Source: Verrucomicrobiota bacterium
GTDB taxonomy: Bacteria; Verrucomicrobiota; Verrucomicrobiia; Limisphaerales; JAKPVM01
Direction of reading: 5' to 3'
Length of the DNA: 36,937 nt
Assembly (NCBI GenBank): GCA_029572555.1
Contig: JAKPVM010000274.1
Location: forward strand, 1-36,937
In this document: piece after piece, positions 1,619 to 31,895 of the stretch
Layout: every line of letters begins with the position of its first letter
Numbering within the stretch: the stretch's first letter is position 1
The notes under the pieces: model-generated
The model's input: the letters and a program-made list of their open reading frames with translations, nothing else
Database searches by the model: none
Told to the model about the DNA's origin: nothing
Made by a program: the position numbers and the translations under genes

Positions 1619-3157
1619 ATGAAGATTAAAGTTGGTGCTTTGATGTCGCGTTGTGGAGTGAAGTTTGGCACAAGCGGGGCGCGTGGACTTTCTGAAGATA
1701 TCACTGATTTTGTTGCTTATGTATACACTCTCGGGTTTTTATCCTATTTGGAATCAATAGGAGAATTGCCCTCATCAAATTTGTCCACTGCTTATGCTGC
1801 AAACGATAAGTCGTCCTTATTTCAACTGCGGACAATTGCGGTTGCGGGTGATTTAAGACCAAGCACAGATAGGATTGCTTATGCAATTTGCCGCGCAATT
1901 GAGGACTATAAATGCAAACCAATTTATTGCGGGAAAATTCCGTCGCCTGCACTCGCGCTTTTTGGATTTCAAAATTCTATCCCATCTATAATGGTTACGG
2001 GAAGTCATATCCCTGCGGATAGAAACGGTATAAAATTTAATAAAAAAGATGCCGAACTTTTGAAAGATGATGAAGAAGGTATCAGACAACAGATAGTAGA
2101 AATTGATGATTCAATCTTTGATTCAAGCGGTTTTTTAAAGGATGCAACAAGACTCTTAAACAAAATAAATCCAGAGGCGCGAATTAATTATATAAACCGT
2201 TATGTGGAGTTTTTTGGGGAAAACTCGCTCAGTTCAATGCGCATCGGTGTTTACCAACACTCATCAGTTAGTAGAGATATCTTGATTGAAGTGTTAAAAC
2301 GTCTTGGCGCTAATGTTACTCCGCTCGGTTTTTCAGACCAGTTCATACCTGTTGATACTGAGGCGATTAGACAAACTGACATTGAACTGGCAAAAAAATG
2401 GGCAAGTGAATATAAGTTCGATTCTATTGTTTCAACTGACGGAGATGGCGATAGGCCACTTATTAGCGATGAATATGGTAACTGGATTAAAGGCGATATT
2501 GTCGGGCTTTTATGCGCAAAATACCTTCAAGTAGATTCAATAAGCGTGCCTATAAGCTGCAACACTGCTATTGAAAAATGCGGATATTTTGCTGAAGTAA
2601 AAAGAACAAAAATCGGTTCTCCTTATGTAATTTCATCAATGCAAGAAGCAACTGAAAAGGGCAGGCAAATTGTCGCTGGGTTTGAGGCAAACGGCGGATT
2701 TTTGCTCCAGACAAAAGTTGTAAAAAATGGCAAAACGCTTTTACCATTGCCCACACGCGATGCCCTGCTACCTATATTATCAATACTCATTTTATCAAAG
2801 ATTTCAGGAAAAAAAATCTCTGCGCTTCTCTCAGAATTACCTGCCAGATATACAGCCAGCGATAGATTAGCAAATTATGAACAGAACCGTTCACGCGCAA
2901 TTCTTGAGAAGTTCAGTTCTGATAACGAAGAAAAAAATTTAAAGGAGTTTGAAAAATATTTTGGAATTGTCTGCGGAAAGCCTGTTAGTATAAATCGTTT
3001 AGATGGCATTCGTGTAACGTTTGAAAATGGAGAGATAATTCATCTCAGACCTTCCGGGAATGCCCCTGAATTTAGATGTTATACTGAATCAGATTCACAA
3101 GACAGCGCAATTGAAATCAACCAGCAATGTTTAGAAATCATTAAAAACATCAAATAA
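1619..3157 (+). CDS. Phosphoglucomutase/phosphomannomutase family (alpha-D-phosphohexomutase); start may be 1649
   Basis: FGTSGARG N-terminus, phosphoserine motif VTGSHIPADRNGIKF, metal motif STDGDGDRPL, GFEANGGF, and C-terminal RPSGNAPEFRCYTES. Confidence 0.93.
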   Translation: MKIKVGALMSRCGVKFGTSGARGLSEDITDFVAYVYTLGFLSYLESIGELPSSNLSTAYAANDKSSLFQLRTIAVAGDLRPSTDRIAYAICRAIEDYKCKPIYCGKIPSPALALFGFQNSIPSIMVTGSHIPADRNGIKFNKKDAELLKDDEEGIRQQIVEIDDSIFDSSGFLKDATRLLNKINPEARINYINRYVEFFGENSLSSMRIGVYQHSSVSRDILIEVLKRLGANVTPLGFSDQFIPVDTEAIRQTDIELAKKWASEYKFDSIVSTDGDGDRPLISDEYGNWIKGDIVGLLCAKYLQVDSISVPISCNTAIEKCGYFAEVKRTKIGSPYVISSMQEATEKGRQIVAGFEANGGFLLQTKVVKNGKTLLPLPTRDALLPILSILILSKISGKKISALLSELPARYTASDRLANYEQNRSRAILEKFSSDNEEKNLKEFEKYFGIVCGKPVSINRLDGIRVTFENGEIIHLRPSGNAPEFRCYTESDSQDSAIEINQQCLEIIKNIK

Positions 3158-3315: not shown

Positions 3316-4368
3316 ATGGAAAACAAAATTTACCTACCGTGGAACCTTGCAACCCGGCAATTTCGTGCACACGAGCAACTAAAGGACTGGGTTCAACGGG
3401 AGATTACTAAACTTGAACGGCACCTTGTAAATTTTCCACATGAGCAGGTGCATCTCCATGTTCTTGTGGAAATGCATAAGTCCAGTAAAAACTTTACCGC
3501 AAGTCTGACTTTGCGCCTTCCTTCAAATTTATTAAACGCAAAATGTCTTGATGACGACCCAATTTCTGCAATCTCCGGCGCAATGAAGTCGTTAATAAAA
3601 GAAGTTGATCGTTTTAAATCAGAACTAAGACATACTAAAGATAGAAGAAGGTTCAGACAAAAAATTGAGGAGACCGGAACAAAACCAATTGCCTTTGCCC
3701 CTGAACCGTTGCCAGAAGAAAAAGCCCCGAAAGATTTGGGTCAGCTTCTTGCACAGGTAATAGAAGATAACTATGACAGAATCTTTGATTACGTAAAAAG
3801 ACAGATAGAACACCTTGAAATTAACGGAGAAATCCCTAAAGGCTCTGTTGATCCTGAAGCTGCGCTTGATGAAGCAATCAATACTACCCTTGCATCAGTG
3901 GATAAAAAACCGGAAAATATCGGCTTTATTCAGTGGTTATATCAAATGATTAATTCCGAAATTGAGCGGAGACGTAAATTGTTTAAAAGACAAAAATCAA
4001 CTACCATTTCTTTTGATGAATTTGAAGAAGCAATTAGTGAACCTGTGGATGTGGCGCCACTTATTGAATCAATGTTGAATGAAATACCACTGGACGAACA
4101 CACAATCCAATCTAAATCTTACCTATCGTCTCCGGTTTCTGCCCCAGACGAAGCCCTTGCAGAAAAAGAGTTTGTGGATACCTTGATTGAAAGTTCAAAA
4201 CATTGGGACAAAAACCAACGCGATGTGTTTGACCTTTATTTTATAGAAGGTTTTAACGAAAAAGATTGCGCTATGATTCTAAAGTTGCCACCAGAAGAGA
4301 TAAAAAATGCGATCCAAAAAATACACGAAATAATAAGAGAAAAAATCATTGAGGAATCTTTTCGGTAA
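3316..4368 (+). CDS. HPF/RaiA (ribosomal S30AE)-like domain fused to sigma-70-like region 2 and region 4 segments
   Basis: N-term ATRQFRAHEQLKDWVQREITKLERHL...VHLHVLVEMHKSSKNFTASLTLRLPSNLLNAK...DDPISAISGAMKSLIKEVDRFKSEL is HPF-like; C-term FVDTLIESSKHWDKNQRDVFDLYFIEGFNEKDCAMILKLPPEEIKNAIQKIHEIIREKI is sigma region 4-like HTH; middle DEAINTTLASVDKKPENIGFIQWLYQMINSEIERRRK is region 2-like. Confidence 0.75.
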   Translation: MENKIYLPWNLATRQFRAHEQLKDWVQREITKLERHLVNFPHEQVHLHVLVEMHKSSKNFTASLTLRLPSNLLNAKCLDDDPISAISGAMKSLIKEVDRFKSELRHTKDRRRFRQKIEETGTKPIAFAPEPLPEEKAPKDLGQLLAQVIEDNYDRIFDYVKRQIEHLEINGEIPKGSVDPEAALDEAINTTLASVDKKPENIGFIQWLYQMINSEIERRRKLFKRQKSTTISFDEFEEAISEPVDVAPLIESMLNEIPLDEHTIQSKSYLSSPVSAPDEALAEKEFVDTLIESSKHWDKNQRDVFDLYFIEGFNEKDCAMILKLPPEEIKNAIQKIHEIIREKIIEESFR

Positions 4369-4512: not shown

Positions 4513-6024
4513 TTATTCAATCAATTCTCTCTTGATTTTTATTTCTGGTGGCCAGGAACGTTTAAAGCCTTCGCCTTGAAGTTTTCTTGTGGCATCAATT
4601 CCGAGTTTTGTCCCGACGCCGATAATATCGGTTGCGTGGTCAAGCACATCAGCCGGTCCTTTTGTAAATACGCAATCCCGTTGTGGGTCAGTGTTTGAAC
4701 ATAATTTAAAAAGCACCTCGCTTGTGTTGTTGACATCAACATCATCATCAACAATCACAATATATTTCGTAAACATCATCTGCCCCATCCCCCACAGCCC
4801 ATACATAATTTTATAAGCCTGCATTGGATAGGTCTTTTTTATGCTTGCAAAAAGAAGGTTGTGAAAAACGCCTTCCGCGGGCAAAGCAATGTCGACAAGT
4901 TCAGGAAAAGTCATCTTTAATACAGGAAGAAATATCTTTAACGAGGCGTTGCCAAGATAAAAATCTTCCATCGGCGGTTTCCCAACAATTGTTGCGGGAT
5001 AAACAGCAGTTTTTCTATGTGTAATTGCTGTAACGTGGAAAACCGGATAAGGCTCGGGCATTGTGTAAAAGCCAGTATGGTCGCCAAACGGTCCCTCTTC
5101 CCTTAGTGGTTCTTGCGGGTCAATGTATCCTTCAATTACAAAATCTGCATTTGCAGGCACTTCAATGTCATTTGTCTCGCACTTAACAAGTTCAACTGGC
5201 TTTTTTCTTAAAAACCCAGCAAGCAAATATTCGTCCATTCCATCAGGCAGCGGCGCGCTTGCGCAAAATGGAAACACAGGGTCGCCGCCTAAAAAAACAC
5301 TCACTGGCATTCTCTCTCCTTTTTCGAAATATCGTCTCCCGTGTCTTGCGCCAACCTTTTGCATCTGCCAATGCATTCCTGTTGTCTGGCTGTCATAAAC
5401 CTGCATCCTATACATCCCAATATTCCGTTCGCCACTATCCGGGTCTTTTGTTACGACACAAGGAAGCGTAATAAATCGTCCTGCGTCTAATTGCCAGCAT
5501 TTCAAGATTGGTATATTCAATAAAGTTGGAAAATTTCCGACCTCGTTTAACTGTTCAAGTTCAGAAATTGATGGGGCTTTTTGCCATGGTTCAGTTCTCC
5601 TTGTTTGCGGTTCAAACTTATGAACGACCTCTTTACATTGCCCGTCTTTGACAAATTTAGGTTTGCAATTTCTAAGGCTTAAAAGATTGGATAACAATTT
5701 TATTGCGTCTTTAAAATCTACTGGCGGTTTAATCTTTAAAATACCATCTAATTCTCTCGCCACAGAGTCCACAGAATCAACACCCAATGCAATTGCCATT
5801 CTGCTCCAGGAGCCCATTGTATTGATTGCAACAGGAAACGGAGATTGCTCGCCATTGATGGTCGGTTTTTCAATCAACAGCGCCTTGCCGCCACCGGGTT
5901 TTTTCATCTCGATATTTGCGGCTGCGGTGATTTCAAGTTCAGTGGCAAGTTGTTGGCTCACCCTCTTGAGTTCATCTCGTCCCTCAAGTTCATCTAAAAA
6001 TTTACGGAAGGATTCAAACGCCAT
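4513..6024 (-). CDS. ubiD: UbiD family (prenylated-FMN) decarboxylase
   Basis: 503 aa; FRKFLDELEGRDELKRVSQQLATELEITAAA, REEGPFGDHTGFY, KYIVIVDDDVDVNN, GTKLGIDATRKLQGEGFKRSWP closely resemble UbiD. Confidence 0.92.
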   Translation of the reverse strand: MAFESFRKFLDELEGRDELKRVSQQLATELEITAAANIEMKKPGGGKALLIEKPTINGEQSPFPVAINTMGSWSRMAIALGVDSVDSVARELDGILKIKPPVDFKDAIKLLSNLLSLRNCKPKFVKDGQCKEVVHKFEPQTRRTEPWQKAPSISELEQLNEVGNFPTLLNIPILKCWQLDAGRFITLPCVVTKDPDSGERNIGMYRMQVYDSQTTGMHWQMQKVGARHGRRYFEKGERMPVSVFLGGDPVFPFCASAPLPDGMDEYLLAGFLRKKPVELVKCETNDIEVPANADFVIEGYIDPQEPLREEGPFGDHTGFYTMPEPYPVFHVTAITHRKTAVYPATIVGKPPMEDFYLGNASLKIFLPVLKMTFPELVDIALPAEGVFHNLLFASIKKTYPMQAYKIMYGLWGMGQMMFTKYIVIVDDDVDVNNTSEVLFKLCSNTDPQRDCVFTKGPADVLDHATDIIGVGTKLGIDATRKLQGEGFKRSWPPEIKIKRELIE

Positions 6025-6546: not shown

Positions 6547-6634
6547 GCCGGTGTGATGGAATGGCAGACATACAGGACTTAAAATCCTGGGGCTATAAAA
6601 AGCCGTGCGGGTTCGAGTCCCGCCTCCGGCACCA
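6547..6634 (+). tRNA. tRNA-Leu (UAA)
   Basis: Acceptor GCCGGTG/CTCCGGC with encoded CCA, anticodon loop CTTAAAA in stem CAGGA/TCCTG, long variable arm, TPsiC GGTTCGAGTCC. Confidence 0.95.
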
Positions 6635-6710
6635 ATTTGGTTTAAAAATAGATTTTGATTGTTAGTAAGATAATTATACTTTGTTAATTCCAACCAAGAC
6701 TACTTGGACA

Positions 6711-7500
6711 TCAGTAACTTATGTTTCGAAAATTAAGATCATTTTGTATCAATTCGTATTCAATATATTTTAAAGGTATGCAATTTTTATTCTTCTTATT
6801 AAACTTCTCAAAACTTTCTAAAATTTTTCTGTAATTTTCCGATGATTTATTTTTTATTTTTTTAGAAATTAAAACTGGTTGTATATCGCTTATTCTATTG
6901 GGAATATAATATTGTTCTAACCAATCAACATATCTTTGAATCTGAATAATATTGTCGGTGCTTGCCTCAACAGATTTTAGTTCAACAGGTAAAACAATTT
7001 TTATATCACCTTTAACTAAAGAAAGCATTACATCTATCCTTTGCATTCCCACACCGCAAGAAACCTCATTCCCTAACCACTCAAAAGTTAAACCATTAAG
7101 TAAATTCTCATCTAAACTTTTATTAGTTCCTCTACCAATATTTTGGATAACATACGCCTGTAAATGAGTTTCAAAGGCTTTTTTATCTCCGTATTTTTTA
7201 ATCAACCTTGGAAGAATGTTTATTTTCTCTTTTCTCCCCGTGGTTAATAATTTTATATGCCAACGAAAAAACAGGATCGTCAAATCTTCCTATTCTTTTT
7301 AATTTTAATCCTTCTGATATGATTGTTTTAGGTGCATTTTTGAAATACTCCCTATATACACTAAAGGAGATTTCACTATTTTGAATAAGAAAATCTCCTA
7401 TTTCACCAAATTCTTTTTGTACAATATTAAGAACTTTTAAGCAAATTTCTTCATTCAGGTTTGTGAAAGACGTTATTTCTTGACTATCAATTATCATCAT
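6711..7500 (-). pseudogene. Putative PD-(D/E)XK restriction-type endonuclease split into two ORFs by an apparent +1 frameshift (7198-7500 and 6711-7283)
   Basis: Frame 1 (...SLAYKIINHG) reads naturally into frame 2 (RKEKINILPRLIKKYG...); nuclease-like QRIDVMLSL...IVLPVELKSVEAS in the downstream part; overlap lies at a G4 run (CCCC at 7236-7239). Confidence 0.6.
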
Positions 7501-8231
7501 AAATACCTCTTGCTTATTGCGAGATTATAGTCGTTCTCAACTTGTTCATAGGTGGCAAATTCACATTTATCATTTAGTACTTTAAAAGCGCACTTGTCCA
7601 GTTCTTTCCTAAATTTTTCTTCTCTATTTTCAAATGAAACGCAGCAAAAAATTGTTCTAAAATCTTGTAACTCTACAAACTTAACAAATGCATTCCTAAA
7701 ATTGGTAGAATGTTCTACTTCAAATATTTTTAATGGAAATTTTCTTTTATTAAACCAAATTACATCAAAATATCTCACTGTTTCATTGATAATATTCTCA
7801 TAAGTAAACATAGGAACATCAGAAAGCGTAGCTAAACTTCCGAGTGTTTTATTATCAAAAATCCAATTCTTATCATTAGTATAAGTATCCTCAACTTCAT
7901 CTCTGCTATTTCCAATTTCAATTAACATTCCTTGAATTTTTGCGTGTAGCCGTTCCCTCTTATCAGATTCTGTTTTAGGTGGAACTATCTTTGGTAGTTT
8001 ATCAAGATATTTTGTTAATGCATAAACTCCTAAACCTATTCTTGTAAATCGTTGTTTGTCTCTTTGAACTCTCTCCTGAATAGTCTTTTCTGGAGTCAAT
8101 CCACGAATATTTTTTCTGTCTTTGTATTTCCAAATATTTTTATAAATAAGTTTCAATGGCGCAAAGTATCCATTATTTAACATTACTTGCTCAATTGCAT
8201 CGGAATATGTTAAATTATTATTTTGCTGCAT
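7497..8231 (-). CDS. Putative restriction endonuclease with N-terminal HARE-HTH-like domain
   Basis: TYSDAIEQVMLNNGYFAPLKLIYKNIWKY...RFTRIGLGVYALT resembles HARE-HTH; RYFDVIWFNKRKFPLKIFEVEHS resembles a PD-(D/E)XK core; ATGA overlap with downstream ORF. Confidence 0.65.
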   Translation of the reverse strand: MQQNNNLTYSDAIEQVMLNNGYFAPLKLIYKNIWKYKDRKNIRGLTPEKTIQERVQRDKQRFTRIGLGVYALTKYLDKLPKIVPPKTESDKRERLHAKIQGMLIEIGNSRDEVEDTYTNDKNWIFDNKTLGSLATLSDVPMFTYENIINETVRYFDVIWFNKRKFPLKIFEVEHSTNFRNAFVKFVELQDFRTIFCCVSFENREEKFRKELDKCAFKVLNDKCEFATYEQVENDYNLAISKRYL

Positions 8232-8908
8232 ATTTTATCTTCTCCTATAATTAACTTATTTCTATTTGCTATTTCTACCACTCCCGGCGACAACTCCACT
8301 CCAATTCCATTCCTACCCAATCTTTTACACTCAATCAGTGTTGTACCACTCCCTAAAAAAGGGTCTAAAACCCATTCTCCTTGTTTAGTATATCTTCTCA
8401 AAAACTGATTAGGAATTTGCGGTATAAAATTACCCCAGTAACCAGCATTGTGAGCACCTGATTTATCTCTTTTGTATAAAATCCACAAACTTTCTGTTAA
8501 AATATCGCCGTATTCTTTCCAACGATTAAGATTCAAATCGTTTATCTTGCTGGTTTTGATTTCTGTTAAACTTTTTTTGAGGCGGCTAACATAATATTTT
8601 GCTCTCTCTATAGTTTGAGACCTTAATATTTGGTTTAAATCTTCTAAAAGTATTTGTTTATTGATTCTTATTGTGCCTCCGTTTGAACAAATATTTAACA
8701 ATCCGAAATCATCTTTTCTCGGTGCGTTGATAATATCAATTATTTTCTGTATTTCAGATTTTATTTTGCTAATTTCATCTATGTTTCCGATTTTAGATAA
8801 AATTTCAATGAACATTAATTGGTTAATTATGGATTCTGTTCCCCAGTCAGTTTTTTTGTCAGAATCAAAATCAAATAAAGTCAAATTGTCGCTTTTCATA
8901 TTAACCAA
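8210..8908 (-). CDS. DNA methyltransferase-like protein, probably C-terminally truncated
   Basis: SAM motif I region WVLDPFLGSGTTLIECKRLGRNGIGVEL at 8339-8365 and flanks, but no DPPY/SPPY/HPPY catalytic motif anywhere in the ORF. Confidence 0.7.
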   Translation of the reverse strand: MVNMKSDNLTLFDFDSDKKTDWGTESIINQLMFIEILSKIGNIDEISKIKSEIQKIIDIINAPRKDDFGLLNICSNGGTIRINKQILLEDLNQILRSQTIERAKYYVSRLKKSLTEIKTSKINDLNLNRWKEYGDILTESLWILYKRDKSGAHNAGYWGNFIPQIPNQFLRRYTKQGEWVLDPFLGSGTTLIECKRLGRNGIGVELSPGVVEIANRNKLIIGEDKICSKIII

Positions 8909-9041
8909 TTAATATAAGTTAAAAATTATTATTTTAATTTACCAACTTTACAATAACATTCAACAAAAGTATTCAGTACAAACATTAAAATCCTTTATCT
9001 CTTATCCATCTTTGTTTAAAACTACGCAATAAATTTCCACT

Positions 9042-15936: not shown

Positions 15937-16575
15937 ATGGGTATGGCATCACAAAATGACCCCGACTACCCCCTTATTTTGAAAATAAAAAAAGGGGATA
16001 GTGAGGTATTTGCCATACTGGTTGATAAATATAAACAACCGCTAATGAATATGCTCGTGAGGATTGTCCACGACCCGGTTGAAGCAGAAGACCTTGCGCA
16101 ATCAGCATTTATTCAAGCATATAGGGCAATTAATAGATTTAACTTCTCTTCGCGTTTCATTACCTGGTTATTTACAATCGCAAGAAATCTCGCATTAAAC
16201 GAGTTAAGACGACGTTCGCGTCATCCTGCAGATTCATTAGAACAATCGGTCGAAACCGAAGAAAAAACCTTCACACAACAATATGAAGATAAAAAATCCC
16301 CCATTCCTTATGAAGATATTGTAAAAAGCGAACTGTTGTATAAAGTGGAAGAAGCCCTCGCACGACTGCCAGAAAACCAAAGAACGGCAATAACTTTATT
16401 CCAGCAGGAAGATATGTCTTATGAAGAAATCGCAAGGGTGCTTGGATGCTCATTGTCAGCAACAAAATCCATTATACATCGCGGCAGAGAAACCCTTAAG
16501 CAGGCGCTTAAACCGTACTTGAAAAGCGGAGAATGGCGGGAAGATTCTGAAGCCAAAAAATATAGCGACAATTGA
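15937..16575 (+). CDS. ECF-type RNA polymerase sigma-70 factor
   Basis: FAILVDKYKQPLMNMLVRIVHDPVEAEDLAQSAFIQAYRAI...LARLPENQRTAITLFQQEDMSYEEIARVLGCSLSATKSIIHRGRETLKQ. Confidence 0.94.
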   Translation: MGMASQNDPDYPLILKIKKGDSEVFAILVDKYKQPLMNMLVRIVHDPVEAEDLAQSAFIQAYRAINRFNFSSRFITWLFTIARNLALNELRRRSRHPADSLEQSVETEEKTFTQQYEDKKSPIPYEDIVKSELLYKVEEALARLPENQRTAITLFQQEDMSYEEIARVLGCSLSATKSIIHRGRETLKQALKPYLKSGEWREDSEAKKYSDN

Positions 16576-16620
16576 ATGAAACTTTTAGAACCTGTCGGTT
16601 TATTAAACAATGGAACGGCG

Positions 16621-17136
16621 ATGAATAAAACAGAGTTAAATAAATTAAAGGAACTTGCCTTCAAAGGCTTATTGGATGAAAAGTCTAAGGCAAGGTTGAG
16701 TCAATTGCTGAATTCTGAGGAATTGGCTCAAATTGAACAGGACATCGCATTAAGCAAGTTATTACAAAAACTACCATCTTATCCCGTCTCCTCAAATTTC
16801 ACAGCCCGTGTAATGGAGACAATTCAGACCAAAGGACCTGAAGTAGTTAATATTCCATTTTTACGTTTACTCTGGCAAAATCTTACCGGAAAACTTGTCC
16901 CTGTTTCTTTGTTGATTGTTTCTATCGCCATCGGTTATATCAGCTACAATGAAGCCAGAAAAACAAAACTCGCAGGTTCAATAATTGAACTGGAACGAGT
17001 TGCTATGTTAGATGGAAAAAATAGCGGCTTCTCAGTCGAAGTATTTAAGGACTTTGATGTTATACAAAAAATGAATTTGGCTGGTTCAAGTTCGATGGTT
17101 GACCTTGAACTTTTAACCGCATTGAAAAACCAATAA
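16621..17136 (+). CDS. Putative membrane anti-sigma factor (ORF opens at 16576)
   Basis: Immediately downstream of ECF sigma gene; N-terminal helical region then single TM VPVSLLIVSIAIGYI. Confidence 0.6.
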   Translation: MNKTELNKLKELAFKGLLDEKSKARLSQLLNSEELAQIEQDIALSKLLQKLPSYPVSSNFTARVMETIQTKGPEVVNIPFLRLLWQNLTGKLVPVSLLIVSIAIGYISYNEARKTKLAGSIIELERVAMLDGKNSGFSVEVFKDFDVIQKMNLAGSSSMVDLELLTALKNQ

Positions 17137-17144
17137 ACCCGACG

Positions 17145-18125
17145 ATGGCATCTAACAAACACAAATCTTTTAAGTTAATAATAACAATTTTTTGCGGTTT
17201 AACCATTTCGGGACAATTAGTAATTAACTTATCTGCCAAAGATGTTCAGCCCCAACCACCTGCTATCCCGAAACTAACACTTCAATCCCCAATATCATTT
17301 TTTCGGACTATGCTTGAAACAAACCGGGAGGCGCGGGAACAGTTCTTATCTGAAAAACCGCCAGAACAGCGGAAGATTTTAGAAGCAAAATTTAACGAAT
17401 ACCTTACCCTGCCGCCAGACGAACGAGAACTGCGCCTTTTTATGACCGAGTTGCGATGGTATTTATTAATAATTTTAAGAAATAACCCCACAAATCGAAC
17501 GGCATTGATGGAACAGATTCCTGACCGCTATAAATCACTTGTTACCGACAGAGTTAAACACTGGGAGAAACTTCCTTCAGATTTGCAAAAAGAACTGATT
17601 GAAAATGAGTTTGCGCTTCAATATATCCTGCGGCTAAATGATAACCAAAATAACACAGCAGTTCTATCTTCATTGCATCCACAACAACAGGCTAAAGTCC
17701 AACAATTGATTGCAAACTGGAATCGTTTTCCCGAACAACGTAAAAAAACGATTATCGAAAACTTCAATAAGCTATTTGAATTATCACCACAAGAACAACA
17801 ATCTGCGTTAAAAATCCTCCCTGCTGGCGAAAAAATCCGAATGGAAAAAACACTCTCGGCTTTTTCCGGCCTATCAAAAGAAGAAAGAGAACGATGTATT
17901 GCGTCGTTCAAAAAATTCTCGAGTATGAGCGAATCTGAGAGAGAACAATTTTTACGCAATGCGGCAAAATGGGCAGAAATATCCCCTGAAGAACGAGATG
18001 CATGGCGAAACATTGTCCGCTCATTTCAGTCCAATAGAAAAATCGAACTACCCCCTTTACCGCCCGGTATGGTTCAAGAGGCAACCGCAAACCTGCACTC
18101 CCCAAATATAAAACCGGCAAATTAA
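17145..18125 (+). CDS. DUF3106-like exported repeat protein
   Basis: Signal peptide; recurring motif of the type W..LSPEER...F..F..LP, e.g. FNEYLTLPPDERE, FNKLFELSPQEQQ, FKKFSSMSESEREQF, AKWAEISPEERDAW. Confidence 0.75.
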   Translation: MASNKHKSFKLIITIFCGLTISGQLVINLSAKDVQPQPPAIPKLTLQSPISFFRTMLETNREAREQFLSEKPPEQRKILEAKFNEYLTLPPDERELRLFMTELRWYLLIILRNNPTNRTALMEQIPDRYKSLVTDRVKHWEKLPSDLQKELIENEFALQYILRLNDNQNNTAVLSSLHPQQQAKVQQLIANWNRFPEQRKKTIIENFNKLFELSPQEQQSALKILPAGEKIRMEKTLSAFSGLSKEERERCIASFKKFSSMSESEREQFLRNAAKWAEISPEERDAWRNIVRSFQSNRKIELPPLPPGMVQEATANLHSPNIKPAN

Positions 18126-25393: not shown

Positions 25394-25694
25394 TTTAATT
25401 ATAAATTGTTTGACGAACTAAATTATTCAAGTTTCAATCAAAAATTCAATTTTTTAATCTCTTTAACCATATATTCAAATTTAATCTTTTAAAAAGTCAT
25501 TCTATCCCATTTGGCAGAAAGTAAAATCTCTTATATTTTTGCTCTACATTAATTTTTTCTTACATTTTGCGATATATTACAAATCTGAATAATGTGTGTT
25601 TGCTATGACTGTTATTTTACTTGCAATATCTTTACTTTATTATTGTAAAAAAATAATAAGCATAATAGACTTTATAAACAAATTCAGCGTTACT

Positions 25695-28600
25695 ATGAAA
25701 GATGTAAAAATTCGGCAATTTGGTTTTGCAATGTGGATAATAATTATTCCATTAGCGCTACTGATTCTTCAAACGATTATTTCGCCGGCTGCGGATGTAA
25801 CAATCAGCGAGTTTATGGCATTAAACACTAAAACTCTTGCCGATGAAAATGGTACTAATTCAGATTGGATAGAGATTCATAATGTGACCGGAACAAATAT
25901 AAATCTTGAAGGATGGTTTTTAACTGATAATACAAACAACCTCACAAAATGGAGATTTCCTTCAACAAATATTCCGCCAAATGGATATATGGTTATTTTT
26001 GCCTCAGGAAAAGATAGAACTGTTCCCGGCAATCCACTCCATACAAGTTTTCAACTTGGTGGAAGCGGTGAATACCTTGCTCTTTTAAGACCTGATTTAT
26101 CGGTTGCTACTGAATTCTTTCCAACTTTTCCACAACAATATGATGATATATCCTATGGTGATGGTCGCGAAGTCCGCGCCACAATTCTAATTTCAAATCA
26201 TTTTAATGCCAAATATTTCGTTCCTAACGACAATTCGCTCAGCACAAACTGGACGACAGTTGATTTTAATGACTCCTCGTGGACATCAGGAAACTCTGGT
26301 TTTGGCTTTAGCAGATTAGCAGAACCAGCAAGAACAAACCTCTATGCATACTGGCCTATAAGAGAGGGATCAGGCACATCAGTAACCAACCTTACAGGAG
26401 GTATAAATGGAACATTAAACGGCGCTACCTGGACTAATGATTCAATGCACGGATATGTTTTGAGTTTTAGCGGCACAAATAGTTATGTTTCAGCAGGCAC
26501 AATTCCAAGATTTTCGCAATATACAAGCAATTTTACATGGTCATTCTGGTGGAAACAATTTACAATATTAAATAACAATTCAGTCATACTCGGAAACCGC
26601 TACGGCGGAGTTCAATCACCGGTACAATTTATAAAATTTACCCCTACAAAATTTGAATATTATCGCGGTGCTGATATCGGGTTTATGTATTATACAATTC
26701 CCAATAATGAGTGGGTGCATCTATGCGTTACTAAATATTCAAACTATTTTACTTATTATGCCAATGGAAAAGTAGTATCGGCTAACTTTGCCGGGGGCGA
26801 TGTTGAATCAAATCCGCTTTATTGGGGTGGTGATCCTGGCACAAGCGGTGAATATTCGGTTGGCTTAATAGATGAGGTTGCTTTGTGGACAAGGGCTTTG
26901 ACGACAGAAGAGGTGCGAAAAGTAGCCGCCGGTACACCTCTTTCTGGTTTAAGCGGTTACGCAAATACCGATGTAAAAAATAAAATGACGGGCAAATCCA
27001 GTCTTTATATTCGTTATACATTTAATATTTCTGATTCAACAATATTTGATACGTTGGTTTTACGCGTCAAATATGATGATGGATTTATCGCTTATTTGAA
27101 TGGCATTGAAGTAGCAAGAAAAAATGCTCCGCAAAATGCCGGATGGAATTCAACCGCTATTATTGATAGAGACGACTCTCTTGCTTGCGATTATGAGGAA
27201 ATAGATTTAACCCCATATCTTGGTTTGCTTGATGGCGGTATAAATGTTATTGCTATTCACGCAATGAATTCCTCAAATACCGACCCCGACTTTTTAATTA
27301 CTCCAGAACTTGAAGCTGATGAGGTCACAGGTCTTGGTGAACGGTATTTCGGAAATCCTACGCCCGGATTTGCCAATGACCCGGGCGTGATTGACTATGT
27401 AGATGATACGAAATTTAGTCACAATCGCGGAATTTATGATACGAATATTGACCTCACAATTACTTGCCAAACACCGGGAGCAGAGATTCGCTATACAATG
27501 AATGGGACTACTCCTTCTGAAACCAATGGTTTTATTTACTCAAATCCAATTCCAATCTACAAGACTACTATTATTCGTGCTGCCGCATTTAAACCGGGAT
27601 GGAAACCGTCTAATACAGACACTCATACGTATATATATATCAGCGATGTTACCCGTCAAACAAATCCCGGTTTCCCTTCAACATACCCTACAACATGGGG
27701 AGGACCAGTGGCGGATTACGCTATGGATTTGAGAGTTGTAACAAATGCAGCTTATAAAAATACAATTACTAACGATTTGAAATCCCTGCCAGTTGTTTGT
27801 ATTACAGTAAATCCAGACGAATTTTTCGGACCGCAAGGAATATATGCAAATCCATCATGGTCTGGCGTTGCTTCTGAACGTCCAGGAGCAATGGAAATGT
27901 TTTATCCCGATGGTTCAAAAGACGATTTTGGAGTAAATTGTGGAGTAAGAATTGCCGGAGGAGCAAGTAGAACCGGTACTCCTAAAAAAGGCTTGCGCGT
28001 TGTGTTCAGAGATAAATATGGACCGGGCAAGTTAAAATATAAGTTTTTTGATGACAGCGAACTTGACAGGTTTGACGCAATTCAATTTCGTCCAATTTAC
28101 AATATGTCATGGGTCAGGACGGATAATTCAGGACCATTAAATAATGCTAATGCGGATGGCGCAGAAAGGACACATGCCCTTTATGTAAGAGACCAGTTTA
28201 CACGCGAAAGCCAGATTATTATGGGTTCGCTAGGTTCTCACGGTAGATTTGTTCACGTTTACATAAATGGTCTTTACTGGGGCGTGTATAATCCAGCAGA
28301 GCGAACAGACGCATCATTTGCTTCTTCTTATCTCGGCGGCAGTAAAGAGGATTACGACGCAATATTTAGCGAATTGTCCACACCTACAGTTCCAAAAATT
28401 GCGGATGGCGACAGAATTGCATGGGATACAATGTTTAACATTGCAAACGCTGGGCTTACAACTCCGGCTCAATATGCCGCCATTCAAAATTATCTTGATG
28501 TTACAAACCTTGCGGATTATATGATGTTGAATTTTTATACCTGCACTGTTGATTGGCCCTGGCAGAACTGGAACGCAGTGCGACGTCGTTCATCCGATGG

Positions 28601-31600
28601 TAAATTTATCTTCCTTGTATGGGATGCAGAATATACATTGGAACTGCCCCCGTGGGTACCAGAAGATAGAACGACCGTTGGAACAGAGGCAAGAGAGGCT
28701 ATGTCGCCTGCTAAACTGTATTACCAGTTAAAACAAAACCCCGAATGGCGAATGTTATTTGCAGACCGCGCTCAAAAATTTTTCTTTAACGACGGACCAT
28801 TAACCACAAATCAGGCTATTCAAAGATTCGTTAAATTATGCGATACAATTGACCGCGCAATTGTTGGCGAGTCTGCTCGCTGGGGAGATGTGGTAAGGAC
28901 AACTCAGCCATATACTCGCGACGTTGAGTGGATTACCGAGAAAAACAGGCTACTAACACAGTTTTTCCCAAATAGAACTGCTCTTGTTATCCAGCAATTT
29001 AAAAGTGCCGGATTATACCCAACTATTTCCGCGCCTTCATTTAGTATGAACGGCGGAAGATTTTCGGGATATATGGTGCTTTCAGTTACTGCTCCACAGG
29101 GAAATATTTATTACACTACAAATGGGGCTGACCCAAGATTGCCGGGAGGCGCTGTGTCATCTAATGCCACCCTTTATACTTGCCCGGTTAGGTTATCATC
29201 AAGTTGTTTTGTTAAAGCCCGCGCAATATCTGGAACCAACTGGAGCGCAATAATTGAAGCGCCTTTTGTTGAATTAACACCGGTGCCGCTCATGATTGTA
29301 GAAATAATGTATAATCCATCAAGACCACCGGGTACTACTAATGATTTAGATGAATATGAATATATTGTGCTGAAAAACATAGGGTACAATCCCATCAATC
29401 TTGAAGGTGTAAAATTCACGGCAGGAATTACTTTTGTGTTTCCACAAATTATTTTAAATGCAGGAGAACGAATATTTGTTGTAAAAAGCACTAATTCATT
29501 TGAGGATTTCTGGAGGTATAAAATGGGCAGCGATGCGCCACTTCCAAAATACGTTGGCGAATTTGTTGGTTCATTAAGCAATGATGGTGAACGGATTAGA
29601 CTTGAAGGGGCGCTTGGCGAGGTCATTCAAGAATTTACTTACAACGATTGGTTCCCACTTACAGATGGATTGGGATTTTCGCTTGTCGTAAATAATGGTT
29701 CAAGTTTTACAGGAGAAACAGATTGGAGTTCAAAAAGCCAGTGGAAAGTAGGTCTGCTTGAAGGCTTTGTGCCATCACAACCTCCACAATATCAGATTTA
29801 TATAAATGAGGTTCTTTCAAGGGCGGTTTCACCAATGGTTGATGCAATAGAAATTTATAATGCGTCAACAACCAATGTTGACATCGGCGGGTGGTTTTTA
29901 ACCGACGATCCGTTTGAGCCAACAAAATATAAAATACCCGATGGGACAGTGATACAATCAAATCAATGTCACGTTGTGTATGCCACTGAGTATGACGGTG
30001 GAGCAAATTCTTTAATACCATTCGGGCTTGGTTATTCTGGCGATTCTGCATTTATATTCTCTGCTACCCCAAATCAACTTACAGGTTATAGTCATGGTTT
30101 TGATTTTGGTGCGGCACCCCCGAATGTTTCTTTTGGTAGATATGTTGACAGCGTCGGGCAGGAGCATTTTGTGTTGCAAAATGCACTTTCGTTGGGATCC
30201 TCAAATTCAGGACCAAGGGTCGGCACTATTGTAATTACTGAAATCAATTATTTTAGTCCCGATGGAACGGATGAATTCATCAAACTGGAAAATCTAACTG
30301 ATGGGGATATTCAACTTTTCAAACCGGATAATCCACAGGATGTATGGCGAGTAGGCGGAGTTGGTTTTAGCTTCCCGCCAAATACAGTTTTCCCAGCAAG
30401 AGGAACAATCCTTCTTGTCAGCACCAGTTCTGAATTATTCAGACAACGTTATAATATCAGCAATGATATTCAGATTTTCCAATACAACGGCGGTTTGCAG
30501 GACAATGGCGAAAATATATCCATTGAAATGCCTGATGTACCAACCGAACGCGGTCCAGTATATATAACAATTGATGAAGTCCGTTATAATGACAAATCTC
30601 CCTGGCCTATAGCAGCGGCAGGTTTAGGGGCATCTTTACATAAAATACAGAAAAACGCTTTTAGCGATGACCCCGGCAATTGGTTTGCTGCAACACCGAA
30701 CCCGAGTTGCTCTAACCTGTCGGGAACGTCACCATCTGTCATATCCATATCTGACGATAAGGTAGTTTATGAATATCAAGATGTAATAATGACTGCGCAA
30801 GTTTCCGGCTCTTCCACTATTTACTATCAATGGAAGGTGAATGGAACAAATATCCTCGGAGCAACAAATAATATATTAGTTTTGCATAAAGTTAGGTTTG
30901 CAGATGCCGGGAAATATACTTTAGTAGCTTATAACAATGTTGGGTCCGTTGAAAGCGCGCCGGTTAATTTGACTGTAATAAAATTACCTGAAATTATTCA
31001 ACAACCAGTCGATATTTCTATTAAAGCGGGATCAAATGTAACGTTCAAAGTTGTTGCGGTAAGTACAACGTTATTAAGATATCAATGGAAGTTTAACGGG
31101 GCTGAGATTGTTGGCGCTACTTCTGATTCGTATTCAATTTCTAATGTCCAGTTAAAAGATGCCGGAATTTACTCTGTTGCGGTTAGTGACGATGTGGGTT
31201 CTGTTGAGAGTGATACTGCTGAACTTATTGTGTTAATAGACCCGACCATCATCCAGCCTCCACTTTCCATTACCGTTCCAAAAGGTGGCAACGCTGTTTT
31301 AAGTGTTGAAGTAACAAATAACGCAACACTTCCGATAACTTATCGTTGGCGACGGGGTTCGACTTACCTGGCAACAAATGTTTTAATGAGTTGTAAATCA
31401 TTTATGCTGATAACGAACATTCAGGCTAATGGAAATTATCAAGTAATTATATCAAATCCATCAAGGCCATCTGGTTTTGCAAGCCTGTCAGCAACAATAA
31501 CAGTTCTTGCTGATACTGATAACGACGGTATCCCTGATATTTGGGAAACTACTTACGGTTTTGATGCAAACTCGCCCAACGATGCTATACTTGACAGCGA

Positions 31601-31895
31601 TAGTGATGGAATGAACAATCTTGATGAATATATTGCCGGGACAGACCCACTTGACCCAGAAAGTTGTCTTAAAATTCAGAATTTTGGTTCGGTCGATAAT
31701 TTGCAACTTCAGTTTATTGCAATATCAAACCATACGTATAGAGTTCAGATTAACAACACACTTATTAAAAATGACTGGGCAAATATTTTAGATTTTGTTG
31801 CAAGAAAAACCAATACCATAATTGTTTTAACAAATGTTATACAAGGAACATCAGGCTATTTCAGAGTGGTAACACCTGCTCAGCCGCAAAACTGA
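25695..31895 (+). CDS. Giant secreted multidomain protein: lamin-tail domains, LamG, CotH-like kinase, chitobiase C-term-like domains, Ig-like domains, thrombospondin type 3-like Ca-binding segment (ORF opens at 25596)
   Basis: VTISEFMALNTKTLADENGTNSDWIEIHNVTGTNINLEGWFLTD (LTD); LYAYWPIREGSGTSVTNLTGGINGTLNGATW (LamG); LPVVCITVNPDEFFG...VRIAGGASRTGTPKKGLRVVFRDKYG (CotH-like); DTDNDGIPDIWETTYGFDANSPNDAILDSDSDGMNNLDEYIAGTDP (TSP3-like). Confidence 0.85.
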   Translation: MKDVKIRQFGFAMWIIIIPLALLILQTIISPAADVTISEFMALNTKTLADENGTNSDWIEIHNVTGTNINLEGWFLTDNTNNLTKWRFPSTNIPPNGYMVIFASGKDRTVPGNPLHTSFQLGGSGEYLALLRPDLSVATEFFPTFPQQYDDISYGDGREVRATILISNHFNAKYFVPNDNSLSTNWTTVDFNDSSWTSGNSGFGFSRLAEPARTNLYAYWPIREGSGTSVTNLTGGINGTLNGATWTNDSMHGYVLSFSGTNSYVSAGTIPRFSQYTSNFTWSFWWKQFTILNNNSVILGNRYGGVQSPVQFIKFTPTKFEYYRGADIGFMYYTIPNNEWVHLCVTKYSNYFTYYANGKVVSANFAGGDVESNPLYWGGDPGTSGEYSVGLIDEVALWTRALTTEEVRKVAAGTPLSGLSGYANTDVKNKMTGKSSLYIRYTFNISDSTIFDTLVLRVKYDDGFIAYLNGIEVARKNAPQNAGWNSTAIIDRDDSLACDYEEIDLTPYLGLLDGGINVIAIHAMNSSNTDPDFLITPELEADEVTGLGERYFGNPTPGFANDPGVIDYVDDTKFSHNRGIYDTNIDLTITCQTPGAEIRYTMNGTTPSETNGFIYSNPIPIYKTTIIRAAAFKPGWKPSNTDTHTYIYISDVTRQTNPGFPSTYPTTWGGPVADYAMDLRVVTNAAYKNTITNDLKSLPVVCITVNPDEFFGPQGIYANPSWSGVASERPGAMEMFYPDGSKDDFGVNCGVRIAGGASRTGTPKKGLRVVFRDKYGPGKLKYKFFDDSELDRFDAIQFRPIYNMSWVRTDNSGPLNNANADGAERTHALYVRDQFTRESQIIMGSLGSHGRFVHVYINGLYWGVYNPAERTDASFASSYLGGSKEDYDAIFSELSTPTVPKIADGDRIAWDTMFNIANAGLTTPAQYAAIQNYLDVTNLADYMMLNFYTCTVDWPWQNWNAVRRRSSDGKFIFLVWDAEYTLELPPWVPEDRTTVGTEAREAMSPAKLYYQLKQNPEWRMLFADRAQKFFFNDGPLTTNQAIQRFVKLCDTIDRAIVGESARWGDVVRTTQPYTRDVEWITEKNRLLTQFFPNRTALVIQQFKSAGLYPTISAPSFSMNGGRFSGYMVLSVTAPQGNIYYTTNGADPRLPGGAVSSNATLYTCPVRLSSSCFVKARAISGTNWSAIIEAPFVELTPVPLMIVEIMYNPSRPPGTTNDLDEYEYIVLKNIGYNPINLEGVKFTAGITFVFPQIILNAGERIFVVKSTNSFEDFWRYKMGSDAPLPKYVGEFVGSLSNDGERIRLEGALGEVIQEFTYNDWFPLTDGLGFSLVVNNGSSFTGETDWSSKSQWKVGLLEGFVPSQPPQYQIYINEVLSRAVSPMVDAIEIYNASTTNVDIGGWFLTDDPFEPTKYKIPDGTVIQSNQCHVVYATEYDGGANSLIPFGLGYSGDSAFIFSATPNQLTGYSHGFDFGAAPPNVSFGRYVDSVGQEHFVLQNALSLGSSNSGPRVGTIVITEINYFSPDGTDEFIKLENLTDGDIQLFKPDNPQDVWRVGGVGFSFPPNTVFPARGTILLVSTSSELFRQRYNISNDIQIFQYNGGLQDNGENISIEMPDVPTERGPVYITIDEVRYNDKSPWPIAAAGLGASLHKIQKNAFSDDPGNWFAATPNPSCSNLSGTSPSVISISDDKVVYEYQDVIMTAQVSGSSTIYYQWKVNGTNILGATNNILVLHKVRFADAGKYTLVAYNNVGSVESAPVNLTVIKLPEIIQQPVDISIKAGSNVTFKVVAVSTTLLRYQWKFNGAEIVGATSDSYSISNVQLKDAGIYSVAVSDDVGSVESDTAELIVLIDPTIIQPPLSITVPKGGNAVLSVEVTNNATLPITYRWRRGSTYLATNVLMSCKSFMLITNIQANGNYQVIISNPSRPSGFASLSATITVLADTDNDGIPDIWETTYGFDANSPNDAILDSDSDGMNNLDEYIAGTDPLDPESCLKIQNFGSVDNLQLQFIAISNHTYRVQINNTLIKNDWANILDFVARKTNTIIVLTNVIQGTSGYFRVVTPAQPQN

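Follow-up and report, generated by a model that had tools for sequence, protein, structure and literature searches.

The window analyzed here, a stretch of 36,937 nucleotides from a 3.3-Mb, 83% complete draft genome (G000) belonging to an order of the Verrucomicrobia, carries a complete gene (P0001) at 3316..4368 on the + strand. As an earlier note on this DNA had read it, the gene is a single uninterrupted open reading frame, running from an ATG at 3316 to a stop codon at 4366-4368 without internal stop and encoding 350 amino acids. Upstream, after a gap of 158 bp, lies a gene of the phosphoglucomutase/phosphomannomutase family (1619..3157, + strand), which is not a proteostasis gene, and downstream a convergent gene encodes a UbiD-family menaquinone biosynthesis decarboxylase recognized by Pfam and NCBIfam (4513..6024, - strand). 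A scan for promoters and terminators around the gene returned sites no more frequently than in shuffled sequences.

The encoded protein joins a ribosomal S30AE (HPF/RaiA) domain to a C-terminal half resembling an ECF-type sigma factor (all coordinates within the gene are on the + strand). The S30AE domain spans aa 7-115 (3334..3660) and is matched by Pfam PF02482 (Ribosomal_S30AE) over aa 13-104 with an E value of 1.4e-9 and 38.9 bits against a cut-off of 23.7. A first linker (aa 116-139, 3661..3732) separates it from helices resembling sigma region 2 (aa 140-229, 3733..4002), which include a family-specific insertion (aa 165-174, 3808..3837). These are followed by a disordered linker (aa 230-276, 4003..4143) and by a four-helix domain resembling sigma region 4 (aa 277-349, 4144..4362), in which the former recognition helix occupies aa 326-341 (4291..4338). 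The NCBIfam model TIGR02937 (sigma70-ECF) covers both sigma-like parts (aa 144-343, E 5.7e-10) with 39.1 bits, slightly below its cut-off of 42.9; the homologue from genome G018 passes the Pfam cut-offs for both halves in a single open frame.

Structure prediction agreed with the profiles. In an AlphaFold model of the window protein built with an alignment of 12 homologues, residues 9-106 adopt the beta-alpha-beta-beta-beta-alpha order of the S30AE fold, and the C-terminal half consists of three sigma2-like helices (141-169, 180-193, and 204-229), disorder over about 230-275, and four sigma4-like helices (277-349). Confidence was good within domains, and the relative placement of the domains was undefined (pTM 0.44-0.51). 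A second model, with the G018 homologue placed first, gave the same picture. Foldseek searches against the PDB paired the S30AE part with HPF structures, at a TM to target of up to 0.93, and the C-terminal part with the ECF sigma structures SigW, RpoE (sigmaE), and SigH. Profiles, AlphaFold, and Foldseek thus concur on all three modules that the earlier note had recognized, namely, S30AE in the first ~115 aa, region 4 in the last ~65 aa, and a region 2-like segment ahead of the latter. Its acidic linker is also real, with a net charge of -9, but this stretch sits between sigma2 and sigma4 and not between the two halves of the protein, where the linker is approximately neutral. The Pfam scan of the window protein returned neither a phospho-receiver domain nor, at E <= 1, the C-terminal dimerization domain of long HPF.

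Scanning genome contigs with the window protein as a single sequence returned no match, and a profile search was required to reach homologues. Among 320 genomes of the order, it recovered 12 full-length fusions including the window copy, the 11 others being 26-34% identical to the window protein; two close homologues come from genomes catalogued as Verrucomicrobiia SKW90 and Verrucomicrobia RA.bin130. All 12 match both TIGR02937 and the yfiA/HPF model, and 10 of them match Pfam Sigma70_r4_2 at E <= 0.01. Chance can be excluded, since the architecture persists across these 11 other genomes at this level of identity. An assembly or frameshift artifact is ruled out by the presence of the same fusion in many independent genomes, and a chance sigma-like helix-turn-helix by profile, fold, and family-wide conservation. 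The check proposed in the earlier note, a search for homologues keeping both halves, therefore came out in favor of the fusion, in the order and beyond. The same 320 genomes held shortened forms: the gene ends after sigma2 in two species of one genus, several relatives consist of S30AE only, and no sigma remnants were found downstream of shortened members. Two further S30AE matches in frames longer than 300 aa were rejected as small S30AE genes lying in long open frames. Beyond the order, searches across the class and the phylum turned up almost nothing, and viral contigs contained no family member. We also noted a stand-alone sigma4-like piece of the family that lacks S30AE and is flanked by a metalloprotease-like gene and recQ (G133, L116:5631-6005), as well as a decayed fusion copy with several stops and frameshifts that still lies between an M50/CBS peptidase gene and cbpA (G048, L058, G048:C34:29788-30825).

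All fusion-bearing genomes that were checked own at least one other S30AE gene, nearly always a canonical one, so the fusion is an extra S30AE protein and not the housekeeping HPF. With canonical HPF/YfiA (RaiA), it shares the S30AE fold, the PF02482 profile match, and a basic domain, with net charges from +3 to +16. It differs in its added sigma-derived half, in changed basic positions of helix 2, and in its phylogeny. In a tree of S30AE domains, which are short and gave only moderate support at some nodes, the fusion family forms one clade (100/99) and the canonical proteins, including those of the same genomes, form another. S30AE-only relatives branch from within the fusion family, where their sister is a fusion (96/90), and the G130 fusion is the sister of the shortened G132 form (86/92); these positions imply that the sigma part was lost, wholly or partly, at least three times while S30AE was retained. 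Canonical basic columns 29, 32, 57, 91, 105, and 112 are retained in the family and columns 92, 98, 99, and 103 are gone. As several canonical helix-2 basic positions are among the losses, ribosome binding could be weaker or altered. More small, diverged S30AE genes were seen beside canonical HPF and the fusion in G018, G268, G052, and G111 (L117-L121).

The sigma-derived half of 12 fusions was compared with 30 ECF-type sigmas, namely, 29 loci of G000, G018, and G052 and E. coli RpoE. Positions were assigned to promoter contacts by alignment with E. coli RpoE and by what we take to be the general arrangement of ECF structures. The fusions share with ECF (group IV) sigma-70 factors (TIGR02937) the sigma2 and sigma4 folds in the right order, by both profile and structure, and retain the structural core of sigma4 (R302, L307, E311, G312, and an acidic residue at 317). 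In contrast, the basic, Ser/Thr, and small residues that ECFs carry in the -35-reading helix (positions 330-332 and 335-337) are lost. R335 occurs in 0/12 fusions versus 18/30 ECFs, S or T at 331 in 1/12 versus 18/30, R332 in 1/12 versus 21/30, A or G at 336 in 1/12 versus 28/30, and R337 in 3/12 versus 21/30, and the net charge of this helix is lower in fusions (p 2e-4). The same residue set is absent from the proteobacterial members described below. Within sigma4, conservation is lowest in the recognition helix (0.31, versus 0.55 for the supporting helices), the reverse of what promoter reading would lead one to expect.

Sigma2 departs from ECF factors as well. The Q-E-x-F signature of region 2.2 is lost, with Q185 replaced by D in 12/12 fusions (Q in 26/30 ECFs) and F188 lost in 12/12, and the -10 Asn N214 is found in 1/12 fusions versus 19/30 ECFs. 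The extra ten-residue insertion contains an invariant glycine, G171, which together with D185 and P199 is constant in 22/22 aligned members of three bacterial groups. Verrucomicrobial members retain W207, R302, and the hydrophobic cores of sigma2 and sigma4 to a high degree, so this half could, judging from sequence, still bind RNA polymerase. Pfam PhyR_sigma-like is matched by 7/12 members and the PhyR NCBIfam model by 5/12. With its promoter-reading signatures lost, the sigma module looks repurposed, an option that the earlier note had raised. Its other suggestion, that the protein links ribosome status to transcription, gains no support from the sequences, in which the -35- and -10-reading residues and the region 2.2 signature have disappeared family-wide.

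Most family genes are associated with chaperones and proteases. A proteostasis gene lies within 1.5 kb at 17/22 family loci and at 11/13 full-length verrucomicrobial or deltaproteobacterial loci, as compared with 0/18 canonical HPF loci and 1/30 ECF loci screened with the same queries, which were picked from family loci and hence favor the family, yet are generic chaperones and proteases. Neighbors identified by Pfam comprise FtsH, DegP, CbpA, MerR/CbpM, Lon, ClpB, Hsp20, GroEL, GrpE, M50, and rhomboid proteins. For example, the gene order is hsp20, degP, ftsH, fusion, cbpM, cbpA, rhomboid, lon in G018; ftsH, fusion, hsp20, lon, clpB in G090; clpB, fusion, cbpM, cbpA in G263; and groEL, fusion, grpE in G130. 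The window and G052 copies are exceptions, without proteostasis genes beside the fusion. No anti-sigma gene adjoining the fusions was recognized in the loci inspected by eye and with partial Pfam searches. An ORF of ~120-128 aa is conserved near the fusion in three genomes (L041:2428-2811, L043:6556-6915, and L046:6289-6672), with a common core RAF.VV.G..FNR.R.EL; the L041 and L046 copies begin MSDFR, and the L041 copy has no Pfam match.

A proteobacterial branch was revealed only by a plasmid collection, apart from one Deltaproteobacteria MAG in which a diverged full-length member lies immediately downstream of hsp20; a search of the class of this MAG gave no second fusion. Plasmids of Paraburkholderia, Burkholderia, Methylorubrum extorquens AM1, Agrobacterium, Shinella, Caulobacter, Sphingomonas, and Roseomonas carry full-length homologues, whose public annotation reads sigma-70 family, sigma-28, FliA, or hypothetical protein. 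The M. extorquens AM1 member lies at about 867374-868513 of megaplasmid NC_012811. The labels RNA polymerase subunit sigma-28 and flagellar biosynthesis protein FliA on the members in NZ_CP071828.1, NZ_AP023183.1, and NZ_CP015585.1 look like misannotation. These proteobacterial members are located in islands of the tLST (LHR/TLPQC) type. The alphaproteobacterial order is hsp20, hsp20, marR, ftsH, AAA ATPase, fusion, hdeD, with rhomboid, clpP, trxC, and cation antiporter genes farther away, and in Burkholderia anthina the fusion lies between hsp20 genes and groES, groEL, and dnaK. The family has no established name, and the earlier note did not take the architecture for a standard one, but it is no one-off, being widespread and tied to proteostasis and heat-resistance gene clusters.

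Searching with the alpha- and betaproteobacterial members returned about 290 plasmid records, mostly from Klebsiella, Enterobacter, Acinetobacter, and E. coli. Inspected records place the gene between hdeD-GI and trx-GI in E. coli and Klebsiella, and likewise downstream of hdeD-GI in Acinetobacter. In the published tLST gene order, the hdeD-GI/trx-GI interval is occupied by orf11 (PMC8290217), which is listed there with an identity below 30% to every protein of known function. Copies annotated as hypothetical are found at L160:8001-9146 (E. coli), L161:8001-9146 (Klebsiella), and L162:7001-8146 (Acinetobacter), and orf11 DNA was present in 152/5426 complete E. coli genomes. Profiles of 12 verrucomicrobial and 9 proteobacterial members aligned end to end with hhalign (99.9%, E 4.8e-34, 323 columns), and the verrucomicrobial profile aligned with orf11 alone at 97.2% (E 4e-11), showing homology over almost the full length. 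On these profile comparisons, tLST orf11 of E. coli and Klebsiella is a member of the S30AE-sigma fusion family, which is the most useful consequence of the analysis. The gammaproteobacterial form is 25-32% identical to alpha- and betaproteobacterial members, and its S30AE part, too diverged for Pfam to detect in orf11 alone, is one that we infer through those members; the Agrobacterium member passes the Pfam S30AE cut-off (24.1 versus 23.7 bits). The kind of neighborhood also matches most of the family, whereas the window copy lies outside any such island. In the family tree, verrucomicrobial and proteobacterial members are split (100/100), and long branches make it unsure exactly where the copies of the window and of the Deltaproteobacteria MAG belong. 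A sigma-24-like factor mentioned in the island of Methylobacillus flagellatus (PMC8290217) may be a further member.

Studies of the island concern how E. coli and Klebsiella survive heat and chlorine, and its orf11 now gains a domain identity. All 13 functional tLST genes were previously deleted singly in E. coli MG1655 lacZ::LHR, which carries the island, and orf11 is not among the seven whose loss lowered survival of 5-minute lethal heat or chlorine (PMC8407380). This result counts against orf11 being essential for acute resistance. The domain content suggests a role in ribosome preservation or in regrowth and recovery after stress, which would escape such acute-killing assays and fall outside their scope.

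HPF domains fused to other modules (long HPF; HibA, PMC13324472) and degenerate sigma modules (PhyR) are already known, and no S30AE-sigma fusion was found in the open-licence papers searched; here, several bacterial groups combine a reused sigma fold with a ribosome-hibernation fold. We consider it about 50% probable that the fusion is an extra, stress-linked ribosome-binding factor whose ECF-derived sigma fold would now bind a protein partner and no longer read promoters. Under protein-folding stress, the S30AE domain would most likely dock at the 30S decoding region of idle or stalled ribosomes. The C-terminal half, of apparent ECF-type descent with promoter reading lost, would most likely serve as a module for binding proteins, either recruiting a stress-response partner or being held by one. 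Both the ribosome binding and its timing under stress are thus predicted, as is the partner. More tentatively, the protein could be a conserved coupling factor, with S30AE sensing or occupying idle ribosomes and the sigma half targeting RNA polymerase, a sigma, or an anti-sigma. Ribosome state would then be passed on directly to the transcription of protein-quality-control genes, and the factor would be a standard part of mobile heat-resistance islands.

The complete sigma2-linker-sigma4 layout with its ECF fold, the chaperone operons adjoining the fusion genes, and the public sigma-70, sigma-28, and FliA labels of proteobacterial members could all be accommodated by a working alternative sigma of the heat-stress cluster, held at ribosomes by S30AE, released or recruited by stalled translation, and driving the chaperone operons. 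Such a protein should nevertheless keep what the family lacks throughout, namely, the DNA-reading residues of region 4, the region 2.2 Q/F, and the -10 Asn; the recognition helices of the family vary among relatives, and sigma4 or the whole module was repeatedly lost. We therefore regard a promoter-reading sigma as unlikely, and less likely than a ribosome-binding factor with a partner-binding sigma fold. Somewhat more doubtful still is a mimic of PhyR, whose sigma-like domain, degenerate in its promoter and RNA polymerase regions, binds an anti-sigma, NepR, instead (PMC8103513). Like PhyR, the fusion has a degenerate ECF-like module without promoter reading in a stress context, and it would titrate an anti-sigma to free a true stress sigma, with S30AE replacing the PhyR receiver as the switch. 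The PhyR profile matches of 7/12 and 5/12 members and one Foldseek match, to the sigma-NepR complex 5uxx, point this way. The fusion, however, has no receiver by Pfam, neither NepR nor another anti-sigma gene was recognized beside it in the loci inspected, and the PhyR similarity may merely reflect common ECF ancestry. To a similarly low degree, we would credit a sigma-derived half that works solely at the ribosome, either making a second contact or promoting dimerization for 100S particles. HPF is often extended by a second domain that changes ribosome binding, as in long HPF and in HibA (PMC13324472), an archaeal HPF/RaiA in which S30AE is likewise fused to an unrelated module and stand-alone S30AE forms likewise arise by loss of the extension. 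The partner in HibA is a CBS module and not sigma-derived. Against this reading, the Pfam scan found no long-HPF C-terminal domain.

Elsewhere in the window, a bona fide ECF sigma gene is followed by an unknown 186-aa ORF and a gene for a DUF3106 protein (15937-18125), possibly forming a sigma/anti-sigma operon. A tRNA-Leu gene adjoins a low-GC stretch (6547-8912) with an N6/N4 DNA methylase-like ORF (8210-8908), possibly the remnant of a mobile element, and 25596-31895 encodes a protein of 2099 aa that combines lamin-tail, CotH, Ig, and laminin-G-like domains and is probably a large surface or secreted protein.
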